Part shown: piece after piece, positions 991 to 61,628 of the stretch | Layout: the number at the start of each line of letters is the position of its first letter | Position numbering within the stretch: the stretch's first letter is position 1 | Assembly (NCBI GenBank): GCA_945952065.1 | Contig: CAMFGY010000020.1 | Location: forward strand, 1 to 64,000 | DNA: 64,000 nucleotides | Direction of reading: 5' to 3' | Source: an uncultured Burkholderiales bacterium | Lineage (GTDB): Bacteria; Pseudomonadota; Gammaproteobacteria; Burkholderiales; Burkholderiaceae_C | The notes under the pieces: model-generated | The model's database searches: none | What the model was told of the DNA's origin: nothing | The model's input: the letters and a program-made list of their open reading frames with translations, nothing else | Translations under genes and position numbers: made by a program

Positions 991-1814
991 CGCCCCAGAA
1001 CGGCCGCTCGGCAAACCCAGCGGCACCTTCTTCCATGGGCGGCTTGATCGATCAGCTCGCCCGCGCTTGGCAAGGCGGCCCGGCATTGCCAAGTGCGGAC
1101 TGGCAAGACCTGCTGCGAAGCCCGCAAGACGCGTATGCGGTGCAGGCCGGCTTGGCCGAGCGGCTAGGCTGGCAGCCCTCGGGCCAGCCCCAATTCTGGA
1201 AAAGCGGAGGCCCAGATCGGCACAGCCCCTTGAGCCATGCGCCACTGGCCCCTTCTGGCGTGCGCCAAGCTGCGCCAAACCAGCCCGTTCATTTTGGCGA
1301 CCTGAAGTGGCGCCACCCCGGCGCCGAAGCCGAAATCGCCTTGCGCTTGGCGCGCGACCTCAGGCGCGAGGATTTGACAGGCTTGCGTCGTGAAGCGGCG
1401 GCGGCTTGGATTGACGCCATGGCCGTGGCGATCGAGCTGGTGGATTCGCGCTGGCAAGAAGCTGGCGCCGCGCCTGCGCTGCTACGGCAGGCCGATTGCC
1501 TCTCGCATGGCGGCTTGGCCCTGGGCGCGTGGCATCCTTATCGGCCGCTGGACTGGTCAACCCAAAAGTGCGAGCTACAAATCCATGAAGCTGCGCCGCT
1601 GCGTGCCTGCGGCAGCCATTCACTGGGCGACCCGGCCTGGGGCCTGCTGGACTGGCTGCAACATGCCTGCCACCAGGCTTGCCCAGAGGGGCAGGTCTTG
1701 CCTGCGGGCTCGGTGGTAACCACTGGTGCTTGGCTGGTGCAGGCCGGTCTGCAGGCCGGCGACCGGGTGAGCGCCCGCTTTGAAGGCCTGGGCCAGATCG
1801 AGCTGCGGCTGTAA
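987..1814 (+). CDS. 2-keto-4-pentenoate hydratase / FAH-superfamily protein (MhpD-like)
   Basis: 275 aa; the start overlaps the preceding stop as ATGA. The sequence has the layout of the 2-hydroxypenta-2,4-dienoate hydratase / 4-oxalocrotonate decarboxylase branch of the fumarylacetoacetate hydrolase superfamily: an N-terminal helical part ending in QAGLAERLGW, then the beta core with EAEIALRLARDL (metal-binding Glu region), IDAMAVAIELVDSRW, and near the C-terminus GSVVTTGAWLVQAGLQAGDRVSARFEGLG. These enzymes hydrate or decarboxylate small keto acids from meta-cleavage of aromatics. No other aromatic-degradation gene lies beside it, so the substrate is unknown. Confidence 0.8.
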   Translation: MTPQNGRSANPAAPSSMGGLIDQLARAWQGGPALPSADWQDLLRSPQDAYAVQAGLAERLGWQPSGQPQFWKSGGPDRHSPLSHAPLAPSGVRQAAPNQPVHFGDLKWRHPGAEAEIALRLARDLRREDLTGLRREAAAAWIDAMAVAIELVDSRWQEAGAAPALLRQADCLSHGGLALGAWHPYRPLDWSTQKCELQIHEAAPLRACGSHSLGDPAWGLLDWLQHACHQACPEGQVLPAGSVVTTGAWLVQAGLQAGDRVSARFEGLGQIELRL

Positions 1815-1821
1815 AGCCGAC

Positions 1822-2307
1822 TCAAGCCAAGCAATAGCTCAGCAAGAGCAAGAGCGGGTAAGGCAGGGCCACCGTCGGGCGGCAGGCACTGGCGGCGTAT
1901 TCTTTCAGCAAGCCCAAGCCACGCGGGCGCTGCGCCAGCCATTCGCTGTGCAACTGCATAGCCAGCACCGCAGGCGCAGGTGGCGATGTCGGTGAAGTCG
2001 ACGCGATGGGCGACATGGCCGCCCGCAAGCCCTGCTCGATGCGCAGCAATCGATCCGCCAAACGCGCTTGAAAGGTCTTGAGCACCGCCTCTTGCACCCA
2101 CAAGAGCAAGATCAGGGACCACGCCAAAGGCGCTGCCAAGCCCCAGGCGCAGACGCCCAGCGCGCTGAGTTTGAGCCCCAGCGCGGCCCACTCGTAATGC
2201 TCGTGCTGGGCCTGCAGGGCCAGCCATTCCGACCTCAAGCCCTCGGTCTGACCGGCGTTCACACCCGCCGCCATCTCGCAGGACTCGTCGAGCCCCGGCG
2301 GACTCAT
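1822..2307 (-). CDS. Small hypothetical membrane protein
   Basis: 161 aa. I do not recognise a family. A hydrophobic segment spans roughly residues 42-72 (one long or two closely spaced membrane helices), followed by a charged helix (ARLADRLLRIEQ) and a Ser/Pro-rich stretch. The C-terminus is again hydrophobic (PYPLLLLLSYCLA). The start codon overlaps the stop of uup by four bases (ATGA), so it is translationally coupled to the ABC-F gene upstream. It is convergent with the hydratase gene, with only 7 bases between the stops. Confidence 0.6.
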   Translation of the reverse strand: MSPPGLDESCEMAAGVNAGQTEGLRSEWLALQAQHEHYEWAALGLKLSALGVCAWGLAAPLAWSLILLLWVQEAVLKTFQARLADRLLRIEQGLRAAMSPIASTSPTSPPAPAVLAMQLHSEWLAQRPRGLGLLKEYAASACRPTVALPYPLLLLLSYCLA

Positions 2308-4187
2308 TTGGACTCCAGCACTTCCCAGCGCTCCATCAAGGCCAGGAGTTCGTTGTCGATGTCACCGGCCCGGGCTGTCACTTCTGCGATGCGTGCCGCG
2401 CCCTGGGTGTAGAGCTCGCTGCCATTGAGCAAAGCATTGAGTTGCAGCTGCTCGGCCTCCAAGGCCGCCACCTTGGCGGGCAACTCATCCAGCTCGCGCT
2501 GCTCTTTGTAGCTGAGCTTTTTCTTGCTGGCCACCACGGGTGCCGGGGCCGGGGCTGGGGCCGCAGCGGGCGCGGCTGCGGGAGCCTGCTTGGCCTTGTT
2601 GGCTTCGTTGATGGCGGTGGCGCGTTTGGACTGGGTCAACCAATCTTGCACGCCGCCCTCGTACTCGCGCCAACGGCCGTCGCCCTCGTTGACGATGGTG
2701 GAGGTGACCACATTGTCCAGAAAGCGCCGGTCGTGGCTGACCAGAAACACGGTGCCGTCGTACTCGCTCAACAGTTCTTCGAGCAGCTCCAGGGTTTCGA
2801 TGTCCAAGTCATTGGTGGGCTCATCCAGCACCAAGACATTGGCCGGCCGCGCGAACAAGCGCGCCAACAGCAAGCGGTTGCGCTCGCCCCCTGACAAACT
2901 GCGCACCGGCGAATTGGCCCGCGCGGGCGAGAACAAAAAGTCGCCCAGATAGCTCTTCACATGCTTGCGCTGATTGCCGATTTCGATCCATTCGGAGCCG
3001 GGGCTGATGGTGTCGGCCAAGGTGGCATCCAGATTCAACACATCGCGCATCTGATCAAAGTAGGCGATATTGATCTTGGAGCCCATCCGGGCTTCGCCGC
3101 TGTCGGGCGCGAGCTGCCCCAGAATCATCTTCAAAAGCGTGGTCTTGCCCGCGCCATTGGGGCCCACCAAACCCACCTTGTCGCCGCGCAGAATCGTGCA
3201 AGTGAAGTCGCGCACGATGACCCGGTCGCCAAAGCTCTTGTTGACGTTTTCCAGCTCGGCCACGATCTTGCCGCTGGCACCGCCGGTGTCGATGTCTAAC
3301 TTGACTTTGCCCTGCACATCGCGCCGCGCCGCATGCGCCAAACGCATCTGTTCCAAGCGCTGGATGCGCGCCACGCTGCGGGTACGCCGCGCTTCAACGC
3401 CCTTGCGAATCCAGATTTCTTCCTGGGCCAAGAGCTTGTCGAAACGCGCGTTGTAAAGCGCCTCGTTCTCCAGCTCAAAGGCCTTGGCTGCGGTAAAGGC
3501 CGCGAAGTTGCCCGGGTAGCCGCGCAGCTGACCCCGGTCGAGCTCGACGATGCGGTTGGCCACATTGTCCAAAAAGCTCCGATCGTGGGTGATCAGCAGC
3601 AAGGAACCTTTGAAATTGTTGAGCAGCTCTTCCAGCCACGTGATGGCATCCAGGTCCAGATGATTGGTTGGCTCATCGAGCAACAAGACATCGGGCTGGG
3701 CCACCAAGGCGCGGCCCAGGGCCACACGCTTTTTCAAGCCACCCGACAGCGAGCCCACCACCCGAGAACCATCCAGACCCAGGCGCTGCAGGGTCTCTTC
3801 GACACGCTGCTCCCAGTTCCAAGCACCAATATGCTCAATGCGCTCGGCCACCCATTCGAGATCGTCCTCCGGATCATGGATCTCGTAGCGTTCACGCAAG
3901 GCCTTGGCCTCGGCCACGCCCTCGCTGACCGTCTCAAAAATGCTGGACTCCGGGTTCATCACAGGTTCTTGCGGCACATAAACGCTGGTCAGCCCTTGCT
4001 GCAATTGCAGCAAGCCATCATCGAGTTTCTCGATTTGAGCCAGCACTTTCAGCAGCGACGATTTGCCAGTGCCATTGCGACCAATCAGGCCGACACGCTC
4101 ACCCATTTCGAGCGAGAACGAAGCGCCATCGAGCAGGGCCACATGGCCGTAAGCGAGATGGGCATTGGAGATTGAGAGAACTGCCAT
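2304..4187 (-). CDS. uup: ABC-F family ATPase, Uup type
   Basis: 627 aa from ATG 4187 (MAVLSISNAHLAYG). A longer reading frame to 4301 exists, but homologues begin at this methionine. Two ABC ATPase domains sit in tandem without membrane segments: Walker A IGRNGTGKSS, signature LSGGLKKR and LLLDEPTNHLD in the first; VGPNGAGKTT, SLSGGERNRL and LVLDEPTNDLD in the second. An interdomain linker follows the first domain. After an Ala/Pro-rich spacer (~540-560) a charged coiled coil (YKEQRELDELPAKVAALEAE) closes the protein, as is typical of Uup rather than EttA. ABC-F proteins act on the ribosome; Uup also influences transposon excision and tandem-repeat stability in E. coli. No resistance function is implied. 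Confidence 0.92.
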   Translation of the reverse strand: MAVLSISNAHLAYGHVALLDGASFSLEMGERVGLIGRNGTGKSSLLKVLAQIEKLDDGLLQLQQGLTSVYVPQEPVMNPESSIFETVSEGVAEAKALRERYEIHDPEDDLEWVAERIEHIGAWNWEQRVEETLQRLGLDGSRVVGSLSGGLKKRVALGRALVAQPDVLLLDEPTNHLDLDAITWLEELLNNFKGSLLLITHDRSFLDNVANRIVELDRGQLRGYPGNFAAFTAAKAFELENEALYNARFDKLLAQEEIWIRKGVEARRTRSVARIQRLEQMRLAHAARRDVQGKVKLDIDTGGASGKIVAELENVNKSFGDRVIVRDFTCTILRGDKVGLVGPNGAGKTTLLKMILGQLAPDSGEARMGSKINIAYFDQMRDVLNLDATLADTISPGSEWIEIGNQRKHVKSYLGDFLFSPARANSPVRSLSGGERNRLLLARLFARPANVLVLDEPTNDLDIETLELLEELLSEYDGTVFLVSHDRRFLDNVVTSTIVNEGDGRWREYEGGVQDWLTQSKRATAINEANKAKQAPAAAPAAAPAPAPAPVVASKKKLSYKEQRELDELPAKVAALEAEQLQLNALLNGSELYTQGAARIAEVTARAGDIDNELLALMERWEVLESK

Positions 4188-4496
4188 AGCCCGCGATTGT
4201 CGTTGACTGGCACGCACTTTCTCAAAGCGGCGGAATCCGGCCGCGCATTTGAGCGCCAACAAGCGCAAACCCCTAAGCGTTTCCCTGCAAACCTCGCGCA
4301 CCTACGGGAATTCCCGATGCCACTTGGATCAGGGGGTCATCGGGATTTCATGGATTCGTCAAATTTTTCACACATGTACAAACACAGCACGCGGCCAGAA
4401 GCCATGGCATCCACCGGTTTTGTGTCCGCCCAAGCGATGGCGAAAGCCTGACTGACTCACTGACTCTTATGTCGAACGCTCCTCAGGAGGAATGCA
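4188..4496. other. Divergent intergenic region with inverted repeat
   Basis: The 309 bases between uup (minus) and the PEP-CTERM gene (plus) should hold both promoters. An inverted repeat with 8-bp arms (TCCCGATG at 4312-4319, CATCGGGA at 4338-4345, 18-base spacer) is the only structure I find. It could be a regulator site. A strong Shine-Dalgarno sequence, AGGAGG, lies at 4485-4490. Confidence 0.4.
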
Positions 4497-5219
4497 ATGA
4501 CTTCAGCTTTTCAGTTCACCAAAGTCGGCGTGCCCGCTCTGGTTTCCGCGCTGGCCCTGGCTTTTGCAGGCAGCGCCTCGGCCGTCACGGTGACCGAAGG
4601 TTTTGAAACCGTGACCCCCAGCGGCTGGACCACCAAGAACAACAGCCAGCCCCTGGGCAACACCGGCTGGTTCCAGGGCAACACCGCTGTGTTTGATGCA
4701 CAAGCCGGCTCGGCCAACTCGTATGCCGGCGCCAACTTCAACAACACCACCGGCAGTGGCGACATCAGCAACTGGTTGATCACCCCAACCTGGAGCTTCA
4801 ACAACGGCGATGTGGTGTCCTTCTACACCCGCACGACCCCGGAAGGTGCCGCGGTCTACCCCGACCGCCTGGAATTGCGCTTCAGCGCCACCGGCGGCAC
4901 CGATGTTGGCACCACCGCCACCAGCGTGGGTTCGTTCACCACCCTGCTGCTGTCGGTCAACCCCAGTCTGGGCAATGAATACCCCCATGATTGGGCAAAG
5001 TACAGCGTGACGCTGTCTGGCCTGAGTGGCCCGACCAATGGCGCCCTGGCTTTCCGCTACTTCGTGGTGAACGGGGGCCCCGCAGGCGACAACTCTGACT
5101 ACATCGGCGTGGACACCTTCTCGGTGACCGCTGCTGTCCCGGAACCTTCGACCTACGGTCTGATGGCCTTGGGCCTGGGCGTGCTGGTGCTGCGTCGCCG
5201 CCAGCAAAAGCAGGACTGA
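4497..5219 (+). CDS. PEP-CTERM exported protein, choice-of-anchor J-like
   Basis: 240 aa. A signal peptide (~1-29, ending ...GSASA) is followed by a beta-rich secreted domain opening VTVTEGFETVTPSGWTTKN and containing GDISNWLITPTWSFNNGD and DYIGVDTFSV, the pattern of choice-of-anchor J domains. The C-terminus is a classic PEP-CTERM sorting signal: VPEPSTYGLMALG, a hydrophobic stretch, then RRRQQK. Such proteins are cut and processed by an exosortase (EpsH-type), which is not in this window, and are linked to exopolysaccharide or biofilm. AGGAGG seven bases before the ATG fixes the start. A strong terminator follows at 5301. Confidence 0.9.
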   Translation: MTSAFQFTKVGVPALVSALALAFAGSASAVTVTEGFETVTPSGWTTKNNSQPLGNTGWFQGNTAVFDAQAGSANSYAGANFNNTTGSGDISNWLITPTWSFNNGDVVSFYTRTTPEGAAVYPDRLELRFSATGGTDVGTTATSVGSFTTLLLSVNPSLGNEYPHDWAKYSVTLSGLSGPTNGALAFRYFVVNGGPAGDNSDYIGVDTFSVTAAVPEPSTYGLMALGLGVLVLRRRQQKQD

Positions 5220-5300
5220 GCTCCGCCTGCTTGACTCGTTTTCTTTGACCGAGCTCGCGGCACCACAGCGCGAGCCGCTCCTCACAGAGCGACACTCACA

Positions 5301-5325
5301 AGCCCGGTTCAGCCGGGCTTTTTTT
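5301..5325 (+). terminator. Rho-independent terminator of the PEP-CTERM gene
   Basis: Perfect 7-bp stem AGCCCGG / CCGGGCT with a 5-base loop, directly followed by seven Ts. It lies 82 bases after the stop of the PEP-CTERM gene. Confidence 0.9.
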
Positions 5326-5426
5326 CGTCGCGGCCAGCCGTGATTCTTGGCTTCAAGGGTGGCGCAGCAGCGGCGTCAAAAAAGTCGCCCCAAAATCACC
5401 AGAAGGCCAGCGCCAGGGTCCAGTCG

Positions 5427-5455
5427 AAAAAAAGGCGATGCCATGCATCGCCTTT
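5427..5455 (-). terminator. Rho-independent terminator of the Ala-rich protein gene
   Basis: Read on the minus strand, a 10-bp perfect stem (AAAGGCGATG / CATCGCCTTT, 5-base loop) runs into a T-tract, seen as As at 5427-5433 on the plus strand. It begins 18 bases after the stop of the minus-strand gene at 5473. Confidence 0.85.
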
Positions 5456-5472
5456 GTGAGCTGGGCCCGGGC

Positions 5473-5895
5473 TTACTTCTTGACGCTCTCGCCCACCGGC
5501 GCAGCTGCCGTCTTGGCCACGTCCGCAGGCTTGGTGACAGCCGGGGCCGCCGGGGCGGCTGGCGAAGTCGGGCTGGCGGGGCTCACGGGCTTGGCCGTTT
5601 TCTCGGCATGAGCGACGGTGCTTTTGGCTTTCGCCTCAGCTTTGGCGGCCGCTGCAGGCACCGTGGCGGCTACTGGCGCGCTGGCTGCGGCGGTGGCCGC
5701 AGGCGTTGCGGTCTTGGCCGCCGGGGTGGCGTTGGACGTTGCCGTTAGGGCCGGAGCGGTCGCAGTTGCAGGGGCCACCGCCGGGGCAGTTGCAGGAGGG
5801 GCTGCGGGCTTGTCCTGGGCCAGGCTTGCCTGAGCAGCGAAGGCGGCGATCAAAGCACCAACAACAGACGAAGCAGCCACAGAAATCTTTGCCAT
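5473..5895 (-). CDS. Ala/Pro-rich exported protein of unknown function
   Basis: 140 aa from ATG 5895 (MAKISVAASSVVGA); upstream in-frame codons are unlikely because they lack a signal peptide context. Residues 1-27 look like a cleavable signal (…AAFAAQASLAQ). The mature part is low-complexity: repeats of AP, AT and AVA with scattered Lys and a few Asp/Glu, ending VGESVKK. No domain is recognisable. Composition resembles periplasmic spacers or histone H1-like/TonB-like linkers. It is a single-gene unit with its own terminator. A perfect palindrome lies 129 bases upstream at 6024-6047. Confidence 0.65.
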   Translation of the reverse strand: MAKISVAASSVVGALIAAFAAQASLAQDKPAAPPATAPAVAPATATAPALTATSNATPAAKTATPAATAAASAPVAATVPAAAAKAEAKAKSTVAHAEKTAKPVSPASPTSPAAPAAPAVTKPADVAKTAAAPVGESVKK

Positions 5896-6023
5896 CTCAA
5901 AACTCCATTCAAGGTATCGCCATCTGACGCCGATGCAGCCGGTCTTTCGATTCAGACCTCGGGGTCTGTGCTGCATCAGTCGCCTGGCCCTTGCACAACG
6001 GAGTCAGGCTTGGCCTTGTTGAC

Positions 6024-6047
6024 CTTGCAATTGTTAGCAATTGCAAG
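6024..6047. promoter_or_regulatory. Perfect 10-bp palindrome (4-base spacer)
   Basis: CTTGCAATTG, TTAG, CAATTGCAAG: a perfect AT-rich inverted repeat in high-GC surroundings. It lies just downstream of the AraC-family gene stop and upstream of the Ala-rich protein gene, both on the minus strand. There is no T-tract, so an operator for the Ala-rich gene is more likely than a terminator. Confidence 0.5.
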
Positions 6048-6052
6048 CGAGC

Positions 6053-6919
6053 TCAAACCCAGATGCGGTAGGGCCAAAAGGCTTCGTCGCTGTCGATGCG
6101 CTGGCGCAACTCTTCGGGGCTGAAGCCGGTGACCCGACGGGTTTCACGGCAGAGATGGGCTTGGTCGGCGTAACCCAGGTCTTGGGCCAAAGCGCTCCAG
6201 ATCAGCTCACCCGCCTCCAACTCGCGGCGCACCTGAATGAAAGCCGCTTCCGAGCGGCTGATGCGCCGCAAGGCGCGCAGGCTTTGCCCACTCCATTGCT
6301 TGATGCGCCGCTCCACCTGGCGCAAACTGGCGCCATGGCCGGAAGCCACGGCACGCGTCGCCAGTTGCTGCATCCAATCACGGTAGCGATGCGGCGAGGG
6401 GCCTTCTTGTCGGCAGTGCGCACGCCAGCGCGGCAATAAAAAAGCCTCCAGGAGTTGTTGGCATTCCAACTCATCCTGCGCGGCCAAGATTTGCGAACTC
6501 AGGGCCTGCCACTCCGGACCTAACATCGAATCCAAACTCACACAGCGATCCGTCAGGCGACTGATGTCCAAACCGGTCAGGGCATGAAAAGCCTCGGGCA
6601 GAAACGCCACCATGAAGATGCGCCCCGTGCCCTCCGAGCGGAACTGCGCCGGTCCGCTGCGAGGGCCGATGAGCAAGCTCCGGCTTGGCAAGGGCAGCAA
6701 ACTCCCGTCCGGCAACACCTGTGCACCAAGCCCTTGCAAGGCCCAGGTGAGCCCACACAAAGGGGTCGCCGGGAACCAACCGCTGCGCTGGCTCTCGGTC
6801 AAAAAACTTGCCGGTGTGGTGTCGCGCCACATGGAGGAATGCACACAGCCGCTCAAGCCCAAGCTGGGGGCCAGCAGGCGTGCCACGGTGTCGGGGTGCA
6901 AAGCGGCGGTGTCCATCAT
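6053..6919 (-). CDS. AraC-family transcriptional regulator
   Basis: 288 aa; two consecutive ATG codons at 6919 and 6916. The N-terminal ~170 residues form a sensor domain I cannot assign (hydrophobic core with ...SSMWRDTTPASFLTESQR). Residues ~195-285 carry the double helix-turn-helix of AraC/XylS proteins: SLRQVERRIKQWSGQSLRALRRISR in the first half, then WSALAQDLGYADQAHLCRETRRVTGFSPEELRQ, the well-conserved second HTH (A..LGY.DQAHL.RE.RR.TG.SP). The gene stands alone; its target is not evident. Confidence 0.88.
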   Translation of the reverse strand: MMDTAALHPDTVARLLAPSLGLSGCVHSSMWRDTTPASFLTESQRSGWFPATPLCGLTWALQGLGAQVLPDGSLLPLPSRSLLIGPRSGPAQFRSEGTGRIFMVAFLPEAFHALTGLDISRLTDRCVSLDSMLGPEWQALSSQILAAQDELECQQLLEAFLLPRWRAHCRQEGPSPHRYRDWMQQLATRAVASGHGASLRQVERRIKQWSGQSLRALRRISRSEAAFIQVRRELEAGELIWSALAQDLGYADQAHLCRETRRVTGFSPEELRQRIDSDEAFWPYRIWV

Positions 6920-7002
6920 GTCGGCAGTTTAGGGCTTGCGGCCACGGGCCCTGCCGCCCCGTCTGGGCGCCAGGGCCTCGCGTGAGCTTGCTGTGCCGTG
7001 GA

Positions 7003-7965
7003 TCAGGTTTGCGGCCCTGAATGCAAGGCGGCTTCCAAAGCGTCCACAAACATTTGGGCCACGTCAAAGCCGGTTTGGTCGGTGATTTCCTGGAAGCAGG
7101 TTGGGCTGGTGACGTTGACCTCGGTGAGGTTCTCGCCGATCACATCCAGGCCCACCAAGAGCAGGCCGCGCGCGGCCAGAATGGGGCCGACGCTCTCGGC
7201 AATATGCCGGTCTCGCTCGCTGAGCGCGCGGGCCACGCCCTTGCCGCCGGCCGCCAAATTGCCACGCACCTCACCATCCTGCGGAATACGCGCCAAGCAA
7301 AAAGGCACGGGCTTGCCGCCGATCACCAAAACCCGCTTGTCCCCATCTTTGATGGCGGGCAAGTAACGCTGAACCATGACGGTCTCGGCGCCGCCTTTGT
7401 TCAGGGTTTCGATGATGGCGCCCAAGTTCAAGCCATCAGCGCCCACACGGAAAATGCCCGCGCCGCCCATGCCGTCCAGCGGTTTGAGAATGATGTCGCC
7501 ATGCTCGGCATGGAAGGCGCGGATGGCGGCTTCTTGCCGGGTCACGAGGGTCGGGGGACAGAACTGCGGGAACTGCATCAAGGCCAGTTTTTCCGGATGA
7601 TCCCGCAGCGCTTGGGGCTTGTTGAAGACACGCGCCCCTTCGCGCTCGGCCTGTTCCAGCATATGCGTGGCGTAGAAAAACTCGCTGTCAAATGGCGGGT
7701 CTTTGCGCATCAGCACCGCATCAACCTCGGCCACCACCAGGTCGACACGTTCGCCTTCGGCGAACCAGTTGAGCGCGTCACCGGTCAAGGTGATGGCCCG
7801 CGACTGGCGGGCCTCGACCCGACCGCCGGAACGCCAGATCAGGTCTTGCGGCTCACAGGCCCAGAGCTGGTGGCCGCGCTTGGCGGCCTCGCGCATCATG
7901 GCAAAGGTGGAGTCTTTGTAGGTCTTGAAGGTCTCCAGGGGATCGGCAACAAACAACAGCTTCAT
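7003..7965 (-). CDS. gshB: Glutathione synthetase
   Basis: 320 aa, the usual length of proteobacterial GshB. It joins gamma-glutamylcysteine to glycine using ATP in the cytoplasm. Visible family motifs are the N-terminal MKLLFVADPLETFKTYKDST, the Lys/Gly-rich ATP-grasp loop ILKPLDGMGGAGIF, MVQRYLPAIKDGDKRVLV, GNLAAGGKGVA and the C-terminal LTEVNVTSPTCFQEI. gshA, the first enzyme of the pathway, lies in the same window at 18088 on the same strand but is separated by about 10 kb of other genes. benE ends 39 bases upstream. Confidence 0.97.
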   Translation of the reverse strand: MKLLFVADPLETFKTYKDSTFAMMREAAKRGHQLWACEPQDLIWRSGGRVEARQSRAITLTGDALNWFAEGERVDLVVAEVDAVLMRKDPPFDSEFFYATHMLEQAEREGARVFNKPQALRDHPEKLALMQFPQFCPPTLVTRQEAAIRAFHAEHGDIILKPLDGMGGAGIFRVGADGLNLGAIIETLNKGGAETVMVQRYLPAIKDGDKRVLVIGGKPVPFCLARIPQDGEVRGNLAAGGKGVARALSERDRHIAESVGPILAARGLLLVGLDVIGENLTEVNVTSPTCFQEITDQTGFDVAQMFVDALEAALHSGPQT

Positions 7966-45800: not shown

Positions 45801-46418
45801 TCAAGGCTTGGGAATGCGAATCCGGCTGATCATCAAGGAGCCCGAGACGGCGAACAAAAGCACCAAGGGGTGCAGATAAAAGCCCGCCAGCTCGATCTTG
45901 CCGAACCACAGTTGATCGCCCAGCGCCCCTTGCGCGGCGGCGACCCACAGGGCCAGCACCAGCACCAGCGAGGTCGGGATCGGTGTGCCTTCGAAGTACT
46001 TGACCTTGTCGCCGCCTTCGCTGAGCGCTTCGGCAGTGACATTGAAACGCGCCAAGCGCGACACCCCACAGGCGACAAAAAACACCAGAATCACCCGGTC
46101 ATACAAGCCCTGCATGCCACAGCCATAGGCGATGGCCGCGGGCGCCACACCGAAAGAGATGACGTCGGCCAGCGAGTCCAGCTCGCGCCCCATGATGGAC
46201 GACTGCTGGCGCCAGCGCGCCACACTGCCGTCCAGCACGTCAAATACAAAGGCCAGCGGGATCAAGGCGCAGGCGTAGTAGATGTGCTTCACATCGCCGC
46301 TCTGCAAAAAGCTCATCACCGCGAACAAGGCCCCCATGCCGGCAAAGGCATTGGCCAGGGTGAACCAATCCGCGAGATGGAACTCGCGAATCATTGAAAA
46401 AGGTTTGGGTCGGGTCAT
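45801..46418 (-). CDS. pssA: CDP-diacylglycerol-serine O-phosphatidyltransferase
   Basis: 205 aa from ATG 46418 (MTRPKPFSMIREFHLADWFTLANAFAG). It carries the CDP-alcohol phosphatidyltransferase motif DGSVARWRQQSSIMGRELDSLAD (DG-x2-AR-x8-G-x3-D-x3-D). About six membrane helices. It makes phosphatidylserine, the precursor of phosphatidylethanolamine, in the inner membrane. This is the membrane-integral type, not the soluble E. coli type. The nucleotidyltransferase operon ends 44 bases upstream on the same strand. Confidence 0.92.
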   Translation of the reverse strand: MTRPKPFSMIREFHLADWFTLANAFAGMGALFAVMSFLQSGDVKHIYYACALIPLAFVFDVLDGSVARWRQQSSIMGRELDSLADVISFGVAPAAIAYGCGMQGLYDRVILVFFVACGVSRLARFNVTAEALSEGGDKVKYFEGTPIPTSLVLVLALWVAAAQGALGDQLWFGKIELAGFYLHPLVLLFAVSGSLMISRIRIPKP

Positions 46419-46462: not shown

Positions 46463-47599
46463 TCAGGCCTGAGGTTTTGCGCGCTCCGGGGCCATGCGCT
46501 TGAAAGCCTTGATGCTCAAGTGCTTGATCAGCATCAGCGGCGGCATCCGCAAGCCATGCGCACGCAAATACAACAGGGCCTGCGCCAAGCCGGTCCCCGG
46601 CAGCGCCGCGCTCGGATGCGGGGTGCGCAGACCCCGCCGCCACAGGCACTGCATCAAGGTCGAGAGCGGCTCCCGCGGCGCAAACTTCCGCCGCCACTCG
46701 GGCAAGGCCGCATCCAGGCCCACAGGGACAGGCGTTGCAAAAAATTCTTGGCAGGCCCACAAACCGTAATGCAGCGGGCGCTCGAGGTGCAAAAGTTCAG
46801 CGCGCCGCAACAGGGCCGGGCCGAAATCCGCTTGTGCGCCGAAGTGCCGCAACAACAGGTCCAGATCCGACAGGTCCCGCAAACCATGGCTCAGGTCATC
46901 GTTGTAGAACAGATGCGTCATGCTGTGCAGCACCATATCGGCCGGCGCCAGCACATGCAGCCGATCATGGCCCGCAACCGGGCGCGCATCGGCCAGCAGC
47001 AGCGCTGCATCAGGCGGCCGCCTCGTCGTCATCGGCAAGATGTTGTGGTGCACGTCAAGCACGGTCTGGCGCTGCACATGCTCCATGGGCGGCAGCTCGT
47101 GCATCCATTCCCGGTAGTAACGCTGGTCATAGGCATCATGGTGGCCGCCCATCCAGCCATGCAGCATCAACTGCCCCTCCACCACGGGCAAGGGCCCTCG
47201 CGGCACCAGGATGTCGGTGTCTGAAAACAAGCGCCCGCGCGCCGCCGGCAAACCGGCCATCACATAGGCTGCGCCTTTGAGCAAGACCACCGGAATGTTC
47301 AGCTCCCGCAAAGCCTGTTCGATCAATCCTGCCTCCCGCCGCACCTCACGGTGCTGCGCCTCGGACAAGGTCAACGCGGCTTGCAGATGCCGGCGCGGTG
47401 CCGGCGCCACGGCGTCCAATTCCCCCCGCGCTGAAAGCAAGTACGCCAGGCGTGCGAGCACATCGGCGCGCTGGGCTTGGCGGATCAGCAAATCCCAGCG
47501 CTCAAGCGACAGAGGCAGCAATTGCTCCGGATGGCGCAGCGCCCAACAGGCCAGATCATCGCCCTGGGACCAGGTTTCAGCGACGGGTTGCGGGTTCAT
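46463..47599 (-). CDS. Nucleotidyltransferase-family protein of the HprK-rel-A cassette
   Basis: 378 aa. It fits the uncharacterised nucleotidyltransferase family (NTP_transf_5-like): IPVVLLKGAAYVMAGLPAARGRLFSDTDILVPRGPLPVVEGQL has the R..SDTDILV core with the Asp pair expected to bind metal, and a downstream YRxWMHELPPM...VLDVHHNILP and DMVLHSMTHLFYNDDL segment. Its start overlaps the HprK-related gene by four bases. In other proteobacteria such a gene accompanies an HprK-related kinase and a PqqD-like protein; the reaction is not known. It may transfer a nucleotide to a protein or small molecule. Confidence 0.82.
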   Translation of the reverse strand: MNPQPVAETWSQGDDLACWALRHPEQLLPLSLERWDLLIRQAQRADVLARLAYLLSARGELDAVAPAPRRHLQAALTLSEAQHREVRREAGLIEQALRELNIPVVLLKGAAYVMAGLPAARGRLFSDTDILVPRGPLPVVEGQLMLHGWMGGHHDAYDQRYYREWMHELPPMEHVQRQTVLDVHHNILPMTTRRPPDAALLLADARPVAGHDRLHVLAPADMVLHSMTHLFYNDDLSHGLRDLSDLDLLLRHFGAQADFGPALLRRAELLHLERPLHYGLWACQEFFATPVPVGLDAALPEWRRKFAPREPLSTLMQCLWRRGLRTPHPSAALPGTGLAQALLYLRAHGLRMPPLMLIKHLSIKAFKRMAPERAKPQA

Positions 47600-48537
47600 G
47601 CAGGCTCCTGCTGACGCAGCCCCGGATGCAAGGCCAACTGCTCAAAGCAAGTTACCGCTTCATCCAAATTGCTGTAACTGAATTCAAAACAAGCGCTGTC
47701 CGACACCAGGGCCGAGAGGCGCTCAAAGCCAGCACGCTGTTGGACGTTGTAATTGAAGGCGTTGTCGATCAAACGCATCAAACAACGGCTTTTGGGCAGC
47801 GCTTGCAACTGGGTAGCGGCCCCAGCCTGGTAGCGAGGAAACACCACCCAACCGGGCCATGCCAGCTCGTCCGCACGCGCCAGCGCATCGGATGGCGCGG
47901 GGAAATGCCCCACCACGCCCTTGGCCGTGTCTTTCACGATCGACCCAAACTGAACCGCCTCACCGGCAAAACCACGGATCACCTCAATCGAAGCGTTCTT
48001 CAGGCTCACCGGCCGAGGCAAGGGCTGAATCGCACCGCTTTGCATATCGATCAGGGTCAGCTCGTCCGACAGCAAGCGCCAGCCTCGGAACACAAGCGCC
48101 GCGCACAACGTGCTCTTGCCGGACCCCGAAGGCGCGGGCAAGACCAAGGCCCGCCCATGCCGCTCAAGCACGGCCGCATGCAGAATCAAATACTGGTGAC
48201 AAGCCCCCGAGACACACCAATTCATGCCCCATTCCAGCATGGGCAAGCCTTGATCACCGGGCAAGGGTGCAAAAGTGTCCTGCCCATCGATCAAGAAGGA
48301 AATCTGCGGTTTGAGCAGGGCGCGCAAACCGCCCACGGGCCTCACCTCGACGTGGAAGTCCGCGAAGGCGGCCTCTTCTTGCAAAGGGTACTGGGCATAC
48401 AAATGGCGCAGACCCCGTGCCACCGCAGGCAAGCGCGAGCGGATACAAAAAACCAGCGGCCCCGTGCGCAAACGCAAGCCTGCACCACAGAGCTGCTCGC
48501 GCAATTGCGCATCACTCAAATCCGCCAGTCTCAGCAT
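47596..48537 (-). CDS. HprK-related kinase A
   Basis: 313 aa. A P-loop LVLPAPSGSGKSTLCAALVFRGW (~135) is followed by LLSDELTLIDMQSG, the arrangement of HPr kinase/phosphorylase. The protein lacks the N-terminal HprK domain of true HprK and has instead ~120 residues of its own. No HPr (ptsH) gene is in the window. It corresponds in my reading to the HprK-related kinase A family that occurs with PqqD-like proteins. HprK homologues in lasso-peptide clusters phosphorylate a Ser of the peptide, so a peptide or protein kinase role is plausible here. It overlaps both neighbours (7 and 4 bases). Confidence 0.85.
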   Translation of the reverse strand: MLRLADLSDAQLREQLCGAGLRLRTGPLVFCIRSRLPAVARGLRHLYAQYPLQEEAAFADFHVEVRPVGGLRALLKPQISFLIDGQDTFAPLPGDQGLPMLEWGMNWCVSGACHQYLILHAAVLERHGRALVLPAPSGSGKSTLCAALVFRGWRLLSDELTLIDMQSGAIQPLPRPVSLKNASIEVIRGFAGEAVQFGSIVKDTAKGVVGHFPAPSDALARADELAWPGWVVFPRYQAGAATQLQALPKSRCLMRLIDNAFNYNVQQRAGFERLSALVSDSACFEFSYSNLDEAVTCFEQLALHPGLRQQEPA

Positions 48538-48851
48538 GCGTGTTCGGCGATCACGCCCAAAGACAGCAATTGATGAATCAAGGACTGCGCCTGAGCTTCG
48601 CGGATTTGCTGTTCTTGCTGCACCGCTTGCGGGCTGCTCGCTTCAACTTCCGGTAAGCCCTGGACAAGCGCCTGAATCAGAGCCTGCGCTTCCAAAGCCT
48701 GTCCAGCCTCAGCCAGGGACTCCAGCACCAACACACCGGCTTCGCTCAGAAGATGGGTTTCGAAGCGGCTCAAGACATAGACGACGCCTTCGTCTTCCTC
48801 GCCCCAATGCCGCCACTGCACGCCGGGCGCCAAGCCATAGCGCTTGCTCAT
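48531..48851 (-). CDS. PqqD-like peptide chaperone of the HprK-rel-A cassette
   Basis: 106 aa from ATG 48851 (MSKRYGLAPGVQWRHWGEEDEGVVYVLSRFETHLLSEAGVLVLESLAEAG). The beta-hairpin plus winged-helix layout fits PqqD-type proteins, which present peptides to modifying enzymes in RiPP pathways. The central VYVLSRFETHLLSEAGVLVLESL and the C-terminal helix QSLIHQLLSLGVIAEHAC correspond to the two ends of the domain. It starts 46 bases after the stop of the exported-protein gene and overlaps the kinase gene by seven bases. Confidence 0.8.
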   Translation of the reverse strand: MSKRYGLAPGVQWRHWGEEDEGVVYVLSRFETHLLSEAGVLVLESLAEAGQALEAQALIQALVQGLPEVEASSPQAVQQEQQIREAQAQSLIHQLLSLGVIAEHAC

Positions 48852-48897
48852 CAAGCAAAAAGTCGCTCGAAACGGCGTGTCCCGAATGGGTTCAATC

Positions 48898-49518
48898 TCA
48901 GGCAGACATCAGGGTTTGCAGCCACACCAGCGTCTTGTCCTCATTCCAGTTGAGGGACGCCGCCGGGTACACGACCGCATTGGCAGGCTTGGTGCCGCCA
49001 CGAATGGTGGACCAAATCGACTGCGCTTGGATGGCTGTCACCGGCCAACCGGCCACACCCTTGACGGAATTGGCATAGGCCGCCGCGCAGTAGCGCGAGA
49101 ACTGGCTGGAGGCCCCAGAGTTCAAGACATTGCGCATCGTGGCCGAGGTGGACATGCCTGTCGCCGCGCTGCCAAACACCGAGATAAAAGTGGCGTCGCC
49201 CAGAGAGTTGGTGGTACCGGGCACCTTGGGCCAACTGGCGGAACCCAAACCAGCCCAATAGCTCGGGCCATTGCTGCTGCACGCCAAAGCCCCCGGGTGG
49301 CGGCTGTTGAACGTGGACACCGAAATGAAACCCGAGGGATTCACACACACATTGGCTGCATGCACCGGACGACTTGCCACCGACAGCACCACCGGCGCAG
49401 CCGCCAAGCCGCCCTTGAGCAAGCGACGGCGCGCCGCCTGACGCAGGGACGCGTCCGAACCAGCGGGGACAGCTGCCGCCTCGTTGGAGTTCAGATCTTG
49501 TTGATTCTGGCTAGTCAT
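48898..49518 (-). CDS. Exported protein with Tat-like signal, first gene of the HprK-rel-A operon
   Basis: 206 aa from ATG 49518; the longer open frame to 49695 has no ribosome site and hides the signal. Residues ~1-55: a polar N-region, RRRLLKGGLAAAPVVLSVASRPVHA, which is a Tat-type signal (RR then hydrophobic, AxA cleavage). The mature ~150 residues are Ser/Ala/Asn/Trp-rich (VNPSGFISVSTFNSRHPGALACSSN, SATMRNVLNSGASSQFSRYCAAAYAN, SIWSTIRGG) with three Cys, and end LVWLQTLMSA. No family is recognised. Being first in the operon, it is the natural candidate for the cassette's substrate; the Ser second from the C-terminus recalls HprK-type peptide kinases. Confidence 0.7.
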   Translation of the reverse strand: MTSQNQQDLNSNEAAAVPAGSDASLRQAARRRLLKGGLAAAPVVLSVASRPVHAANVCVNPSGFISVSTFNSRHPGALACSSNGPSYWAGLGSASWPKVPGTTNSLGDATFISVFGSAATGMSTSATMRNVLNSGASSQFSRYCAAAYANSVKGVAGWPVTAIQAQSIWSTIRGGTKPANAVVYPAASLNWNEDKTLVWLQTLMSA

Positions 49519-60875: not shown

Positions 60876-61628
60876 ATGAAACACCGAGCCCTCCTCCGCC
60901 CAGCCGCGCTGGCCCTCAGCACTGTTTTGTTGAGCGCCGCGCCCGGCTGGGCCAGCGCCGCCGAGCTGTACAACAACGGCCCGGTGGTGGACGCCAACGG
61001 CTTGTCGATCAAGCCGAACAACGCCTTCACCCTGAGCTTTGGGGTGCAAACCAGCTCCAAGAATGCCGTGGCCGATGACTTCACGGTCAGCGACGCCGGC
61101 TGGCTGATCCGCAGCATTGACTTCTTTGCGCTACAAAACAATGCAACAGCCTTCACGCTGAAGGAAGTCAGCTGGAGCATCCTGGCCAATGACGCCAACA
61201 ATGGCCCGGTCGTGGCCAGCGGCATCACCCCGCTGAGCGACGGCGGCCTGCTCGGCTACCGCGTGACGCCGACCACGTTGACCAGCAAGGCGCGCCCGAT
61301 CTACCGCGCCAGCGCCGACATTCCCGACCTCAGCCTGAGCGCCGGCCACTACTGGCTGCGCTGGAGCATGAGCGGCTCGCTCAGCTCCGGCCCCTGGCAA
61401 CCGCCCACCGCCGATGCCCGCGAAGGCAATGCCCAGCAATCCATCGCCGGCAGCGCCTTCGGCACCATTCAAGACCAAAGCAGCCTGCTCAGCGTGGAGT
61501 TCCCCTTCGCGCTGCAAGGCACGGTGGTCGAAACGGCGGCCATCCCCGAGCCCAGCAGCGCCGCACTCGCCCTGCTCGGCGGCCTAGGCTTGGCCTGGCG
61601 CCTGCGCCGCAAGGCTCAAGCGGCTTGA
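60876..61628 (+). CDS. PEP-CTERM exported protein (AELYNNGPVV family, copy 2)
   Basis: 250 aa. Signal peptide ~1-28 (…LSAAPGWASA). The mature part begins AELYNNGPVVDANGLSIKP and shares VADDFTV, RSIDFFALQN, SWSIL, GGLLGYRV, HYWLRWSMSGSLSSGPWQPPTADAREGNAQQS with the gene at 30858. The sorting signal is IPEPSSAALALLGGLG with LRRKAQAA at the end. It is convergent with a third PEP-CTERM gene (61674). It follows the sigma/kinase/DP-EP genes by 158 bases on the same strand, perhaps as a regulated target. Confidence 0.87.
   Translation: MKHRALLRPAALALSTVLLSAAPGWASAAELYNNGPVVDANGLSIKPNNAFTLSFGVQTSSKNAVADDFTVSDAGWLIRSIDFFALQNNATAFTLKEVSWSILANDANNGPVVASGITPLSDGGLLGYRVTPTTLTSKARPIYRASADIPDLSLSAGHYWLRWSMSGSLSSGPWQPPTADAREGNAQQSIAGSAFGTIQDQSSLLSVEFPFALQGTVVETAAIPEPSSAALALLGGLGLAWRLRRKAQAA

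Follow-up and report, generated by a model that had tools for sequence, protein, structure and literature searches.

What do an HprK-related kinase, a PqqD-like protein and a nucleotidyltransferase-fold protein do together, and is the exported protein encoded beside them the object of their action? This question is raised by a cassette of four minus-strand genes on contig CAMFGY010000020.1 of an uncultured Burkholderiales bacterium (assembly GCA_945952065.1), of which we analysed the first 64,000 nucleotides (hereafter the window). An original prediction, made from the letters of the window alone, had described four minus-strand genes, three of them overlapping by 4-7 bases, and the coordinates, gene families and intact active-site residues bear this out: a check of the open reading frames (ORFs) finds all four genes in place, with the kinase gene overlapping the PqqD gene by 7 bases and the nucleotidyltransferase gene by 4 bases, and with 43 bases between the end of the exported-protein gene and the TTG of the PqqD gene (Table 1). 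The arrangement recurs far beyond chance, as judged from locus surveys, from presence and absence in genomes and from a kinase tree. Here we report that a family of exported proteins (the partner) is linked to this cassette and carries, just behind its leader, a conserved serine segment whose occurrence depends on the cassette. The partner is probably a substrate of the enzymes; that the cassette as a whole is a dedicated protein-modification and export unit is a proposition for which we see an even chance.

An exported protein family accompanies the kinase cassette

The window's partner carries a twin-arginine leader and matches no Pfam or NCBIfam family, in agreement with its earlier description as a twin-arginine translocation (Tat) signal protein without recognised family. 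No Pfam or NCBIfam family was common to more than one of 46 partner members, and a PDB sequence search with the partner returned nothing convincing; as far as these database tests go, the family looks undescribed. Using a profile iterated from the window's exported protein as seed, we found a partner homologue upstream in 34/35 loci of a first set, composed of 34 kinase loci of related genomes and the window; the matches at L061 and L062 are weak, those at L045 and L048 partial, and L064 has no homologue in this position. A leader-like match at L064 (G063:C11:64428-64589) lies 3' of the nucleotidyltransferase gene and not 5' of the kinase gene, as in L140. A scan of named genomes with the kinase alignment gave at least 589 stretches and 335 relatives, of which the best 80 were used, and the first-set profile, applied without retraining, located a cassette-adjacent partner in 78 of these 80 loci (76 of 78 new loci after removal of two records shared with the first set). 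At L140 the partner is 3' of the nucleotidyltransferase gene and at L082 none was found, while among the other ORFs of the 80 loci the profile matched only the L140 copy. The original prediction had counted the exported protein as a member of the cassette and had proposed a search for a conserved Tat-signal partner near the kinase; such a partner is found, and it co-occurs with the cassette in other genomes.

The same linkage is seen at the level of whole genomes. Of 99 relatives including the window's genome, 34 have a kinase above cut-off, and it is these 34 that the partner profile matches, the match in G028 being a 2208-amino acid (aa) repeat protein and not a cassette partner, which leaves a strict count of 33/34 versus 0/65. 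The 2208-aa frame of G028 (L204, G028:C8, ORF 1264-7785, minus strand) holds two copies of the partner C-terminal domain and, lying in a cassette-bearing genome, is possibly a second substrate. The profile of the window's family (family 1) matches 35 of the 398 genomes of a phylum sample, and 30 of these 35 have the kinase above cut-off; of the other five matches, G434 and G377 consist of the C-terminal domain alone and G162, G341 and G471 are weak, leader-only matches (E 6.7e-4 to 8.6e-4). The profile misses 31 of the 61 kinase genomes of this sample, mostly in clades with other partners (see below). Two loci stand out by their organisation or host: L066 (Azohydromonas lata, 4242-5545) has a tandem pair of partner genes before one cassette, and L116 is a cassette with a family-1 partner in Malonomonas rubra, which we take to lie outside Pseudomonadota and which hints at horizontal transfer.

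The partner family comprises 114 members, or 107 after removal of 7 near-copies, and a twin-arginine RR is present in 105/107. In a separate alignment of 70 partners (78 available), R30 and R31 are nearly invariant. With the cleavage site read by eye, the twin-arginine leader marks the partner as a predicted Tat substrate, with export to be expected on this ground.

The conserved serine segment goes with the cassette

The three mature columns of highest identity in the partner family are all serine (105/106, 102/106 and 100/105) and lie just after the leader, their counterparts in the window being S62, S66 and S72. The first two serines are 4 residues apart in 102/105 and the distance from the preceding Cys to the first Ser is 3 or 4 in 99/105. 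Ranked by relative entropy a Cys column comes top, and two Trp columns as well as a His, a Leu and an Asn column also outrank the serines; in the alignment of 70 partners, S62 is the sole invariant residue, with C58, S66 and C80 conserved in more than 90%. In an AlphaFold2 model of the partner (mean predicted local distance difference test score, pLDDT, 75.4), block means lie at 92-97 over residues 81-170 and at 52-62 over residues 51-80, with a low-confidence helix at 62-69, so that the serine segment appears not confidently structured and the domain behind it confident. The C-terminus, where the original prediction had seen a penultimate Ser as an obvious candidate for modification, does not hold up as the site: a penultimate Ser occurs in only 12/107 members of the window's family, and the proposed comparison of C-termini gave no conservation, with a Ser among the last three residues in 25/107.

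Some proteins without a cassette beside them (G434 and G377, both judged by eye to lack the segment) share the partner C-terminal domain (CTPGYWK ... LLNA), which provides a control for the serine segment. A search of 369 genomes with one such cassette-free domain matched 16 genomes. A kinase lies beside the gene in 11 of them, and a fixed pattern finds the serine segment in 10 of these 11, versus 0/5 matched proteins without a kinase in their 1.5-kb flanks, the flanks being the part of these genomes that was searched. One member of the control set (L218) starts at a contig end, and the G028 repeat protein was left out. Including G434 and G377, the segment is present in 0/7 proteins away from a cassette and in 10/11 beside one (Fisher p 2.5e-4), which we regard as the strongest sign that the segment would exist for the enzymes. 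The control also bears on the alternative that the segment has a structural role, such as forming a disulfide loop, and that the genes are tied by regulation only. This alternative draws on the nearly invariant C58 and C80 that flank the segment, on the low-confidence helix and on Ser-rich loops being common in exported proteins, yet the homologues that share the domain away from the cassette are without the segment, and we judge it improbable.

The cassette enzymes are intact and travel together

The kinase scores 372.9 bits against TIGR04352 (curated cut-off 200) and is a member of this family of HprK-related kinases, while against NCBIfam hpr-ser it scores 14.8 bits (cut-off 240). Its residues H120, K141 and D158-E159 are invariant in 21/21 aligned kinases and align with the H, the P-loop K and the D-D of HPr kinase 1jb1. 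The nucleotidyltransferase likewise belongs to its family, with 181.2 bits against PF14907 (gathering cut-off 31.2); its fold is of the nucleotidyltransferase kind, and D127, D129 and D182 are invariant in 20/20 and 36/36 sequences. PqqD was detected in 76 of the 80 loci of the named-genome set. Partner and PqqD share a locus apart from the kinase in three genomes (G362, G222 and G167), which suggests that PqqD serves the partner.

Next to the kinase, the nucleotidyltransferase is found in 76/80 named-genome loci, the remaining 4 running off contig ends. In another set of 29 loci, 17 have it as a neighbour of the kinase (truncated in one), 2 end at contig borders, and in 10 it was not found beside the kinase despite room. 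We searched with PF14907 the genomes of 13 kinase bearers, 11 of them chosen for having no nucleotidyltransferase within 1.5 kb, and found the family in 13/13, compared to 2/14 control genomes; in six of the 13 it shares the strand of the kinase at a distance of about 2-3 kb, in the others farther away or on another contig. Kinase and nucleotidyltransferase therefore go together even when they are not adjacent. The 2-3 kb gap between them (G206, G210, G218, G124, G230 and G135) has room for one or two genes.

This association is relevant to a one-step scheme, in which either the kinase forms a phosphoserine while the nucleotidyltransferase has some other target, or the protein is directly adenylylated and the kinase acts as a regulator. 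The constant company of the two enzymes, adjacent in most loci and present together in all 13 genomes, argues against such a scheme, as does the PsmK/PsmN precedent from lasso peptides, which is sequential (PMC9266682); we hold one step to be unlikely, if still to be reckoned with.

Sister systems carry other partners

A second clade of kinases has a different exported cassette protein with a similar leader (family 2). These partners were chosen by leader profile alone, and 20/21 carry the motif C-[WFY]-x-S-[FLI] close to their C-terminal end. A third group (family 3; L174 to L182) has 9/9 partners ending in T-C-[FY]-A-S-L-Q; of the neighbouring loci, L183 has another partner and L184 none. 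Eight partners outside family 1 (four of family 2, two of family 3 and two divergent) gave no Pfam or NCBIfam match above cut-off. The original notion of a Ser near the C-terminus would fit these sister systems, not the window's family.

On a kinase tree of 130 rows (90 with family 1, 25 with family 2, 9 with family 3 and 6 with none), partner type requires 3 changes versus a minimum of 2 across the 124 labelled rows, and 9 changes versus a minimum of 3 when the six unlabelled rows are treated as a group of their own. For three of the six unlabelled kinases the partner is elsewhere in the genome (G167, G179 and G362).

Genomic setting

Many cassettes lie among genes of the exosortase-A type of exopolysaccharide system. 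Among the neighbours that recur across the 80 loci, an export protein for exopolysaccharide of the exosortase-A type is present in 30 loci, a protein that we named chain-length-like by eye in 28, and a tyrosine kinase of the exosortase-A type and an HtrA-like protease in 26 each; for three neighbour clusters one representative each was compared with NCBIfam, the protease falling under every cut-off. Exosortase A is present in 30/34 relatives with the kinase versus 6/65 without (p 3e-15), in 16/18 versus 6/64 when one genome per genus is taken, and in 25/61 versus 10/337 genomes of the phylum sample. Both this neighbourhood and this co-occurrence favour the alternative that a small molecule or exopolysaccharide is what the enzymes act on, the Tat protein serving in the periplasm as a helper or binding protein. 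However, of the 61 phylum-sample genomes with the kinase, 36 lack exosortase A above cut-off, in the window's genome it lies on another contig (G000:C6, with the cassette at G000:C20, outside the exosortase locus), PqqD-type proteins are peptide binders, and the serine segment goes with the cassette. Together these points leave the small-molecule alternative, in our estimate, rather unlikely. Since the 36 kinase genomes lacking exosortase A carry family codes different from those where we observed partner families 1 and 3, with part of their partners examined, the link to exosortase A is lineage-bound and not needed for the cassette reaction.

Directly 3' of the cassette, the window encodes a CDP-alcohol phosphotransferase (45801-46418, minus strand; TIGR00473 above cut-off), of which a second copy above cut-off is found at G000:C31 of the same genome. 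Elsewhere in the window (60876-61628, plus strand) lies a gene for a 250-aa protein whose tail, IPEPSSAALALLGGLGLAWRLRRKAQAA, resembles a PEP-CTERM sorting signal by eye.

Table 1. Positions of the cassette genes and of the partner's leader and serine segment in the window
Feature	Position	Strand	Remarks
Exported partner, proposed substrate	48898..49518	-	ATG start, 206 aa, twin-arginine leader
Long n-region and twin-arginine leader (R30-R32)	49357..49518	-	predicted AxA cleavage after about residue 54
Conserved serine segment, residues 58-80 (C58, S62, S66, S72, C80)	49279..49347	-	proposed modification site
PqqD-like protein, proposed presenter of the partner	48531..48854	-	TTG start 48854; or ATG 48851, 106 aa
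HprK-related kinase A	47596..48537	-	313 aa; H120, K141, D158, E159; TIGR04352
Nucleotidyltransferase-fold protein	46463..47599	-	378 aa; D127, D129, D182

A proposed route of modification before export

From the linkage, the leader, the catalytic residues and the serine segment we infer PqqD binding, phosphorylation, a second step and its donor, as follows. The PqqD-like protein would bind the newly made partner, most likely by its leader region, and present it to the kinase in the cytoplasm, which would phosphorylate a serine of the segment, S62 being the likeliest acceptor, followed by S66 and S72. The nucleotidyltransferase-fold enzyme would then add a hexose, another sugar-phosphate or a nucleotide group to the phosphate, and the modified partner would exit in folded form by the Tat route, which would suit a cargo that needs modification inside the cell. 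We incline slightly towards a phosphoserine in the serine segment, and hold a second group on the phosphate only tentatively. The scheme in its full extent, in which the Tat leader doubles as a PqqD-type recognition leader, phosphorylation and then capping with a sugar or nucleotide take place on the serine segment of a folded protein before export, and the pathway is widespread and serves several substrate families with little in common beyond their leader, is a possible but doubtful extrapolation. If the proposed route itself is real, it would add a way of modifying proteins ahead of Tat export.

Several observations weigh against this reading. The linkage is partly explained by shared descent, as is part of the clustering of partner types on the kinase tree; the partner matches in G063, G073 and G087 are weak (E 2e-5 to 4e-4) and cover little beyond the leader, and three kinase loci (L082, L170 and L184) have no partner that we could find. 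Pfam TAT_signal matched only 1/46 partner members, and weakly. The window's PqqD-like protein scores 20.3 bits against TIGR04353, under the curated cut-off of 35; this cut-off is passed by 5/5 tested positional orthologues with which the window protein aligns, and we describe the latter as PqqD-like and not as a TIGR04353 member. In G179, where the partner is apart from the kinase, no PqqD was detected beside it. As to the serine segment, low model confidence alone is no proof of disorder, a structural role is conceivable for a conserved Ser-rich stretch flanked by cysteines, and one cassette partner (L222) fails the motif, with one spacing of 5. The acceptor need not share one position across the partner families, which counts against a common site. 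Finally, the mechanism of PsmN, the precedent for the second step, is unsettled: a review leaves room for PsmN as a true nucleotidyltransferase, with a host glycosyltransferase acting after it (PMC9266682).

Comparison with known systems

The likeness of the window's kinase to HPr kinase/phosphorylase lies in the aligned P-loop and H, K and D-[DE] residues; it differs in having Glu for the second Asp and in its companion genes. An annotated counterpart is the HPr-rel-A system of NCBIfam (TIGR04352 kinase, TIGR04353 PqqD), with the same kinase family and a PqqD in the same position, which the description of TIGR04353 already ties to the system, whereas an NCBIfam model for the exported partner was not found. 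A search of the open-licence literature found no paper naming either family and, among the matches listed, none on the reaction or substrate of the cassette. The enzymes, an exported partner family and a precisely placed serine segment together turn this open annotation into a testable one. The exosortase A/PEP-CTERM exopolysaccharide system, for its part, is a frequent neighbour of the cassette and co-occurs with it, though it is not adjacent in the window's genome; if the proposed modification is real, a link to the exopolysaccharide matrix is conceivable in some lineages.

The closest precedent comes from the tailoring of lasso peptides, where genes for a kinase, a PqqD and a nucleotidyltransferase recur around lasso peptide clusters (PMC7533575, PMC10368454). 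In pseudomycoidin, PsmK phosphorylates a C-terminal Ser, and the attachment of one or two hexoses to this phosphoserine requires PsmN, which carries a nucleotidyltransferase annotation (PMC9266682). Among the 18 largest clusters of recurrent neighbours around the 80 loci we recognised no lasso genes, with no model search made for them. The two systems share an HprK-like kinase (PadeK and ThcoK), a PqqD-like element (B1) and a nucleotidyltransferase (PsmN). They differ in the partner, which in the cassette is about 200 aa long and combines a Tat leader with a helical domain modelled at high confidence, and in the position of the conserved Ser, which lies near the mature N-terminus and not, as in pseudomycoidin, at the C-terminus. 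Should the scheme hold, modification guided by a Tat leader would mirror lasso peptide phosphoglycosylation on the scale of whole proteins.

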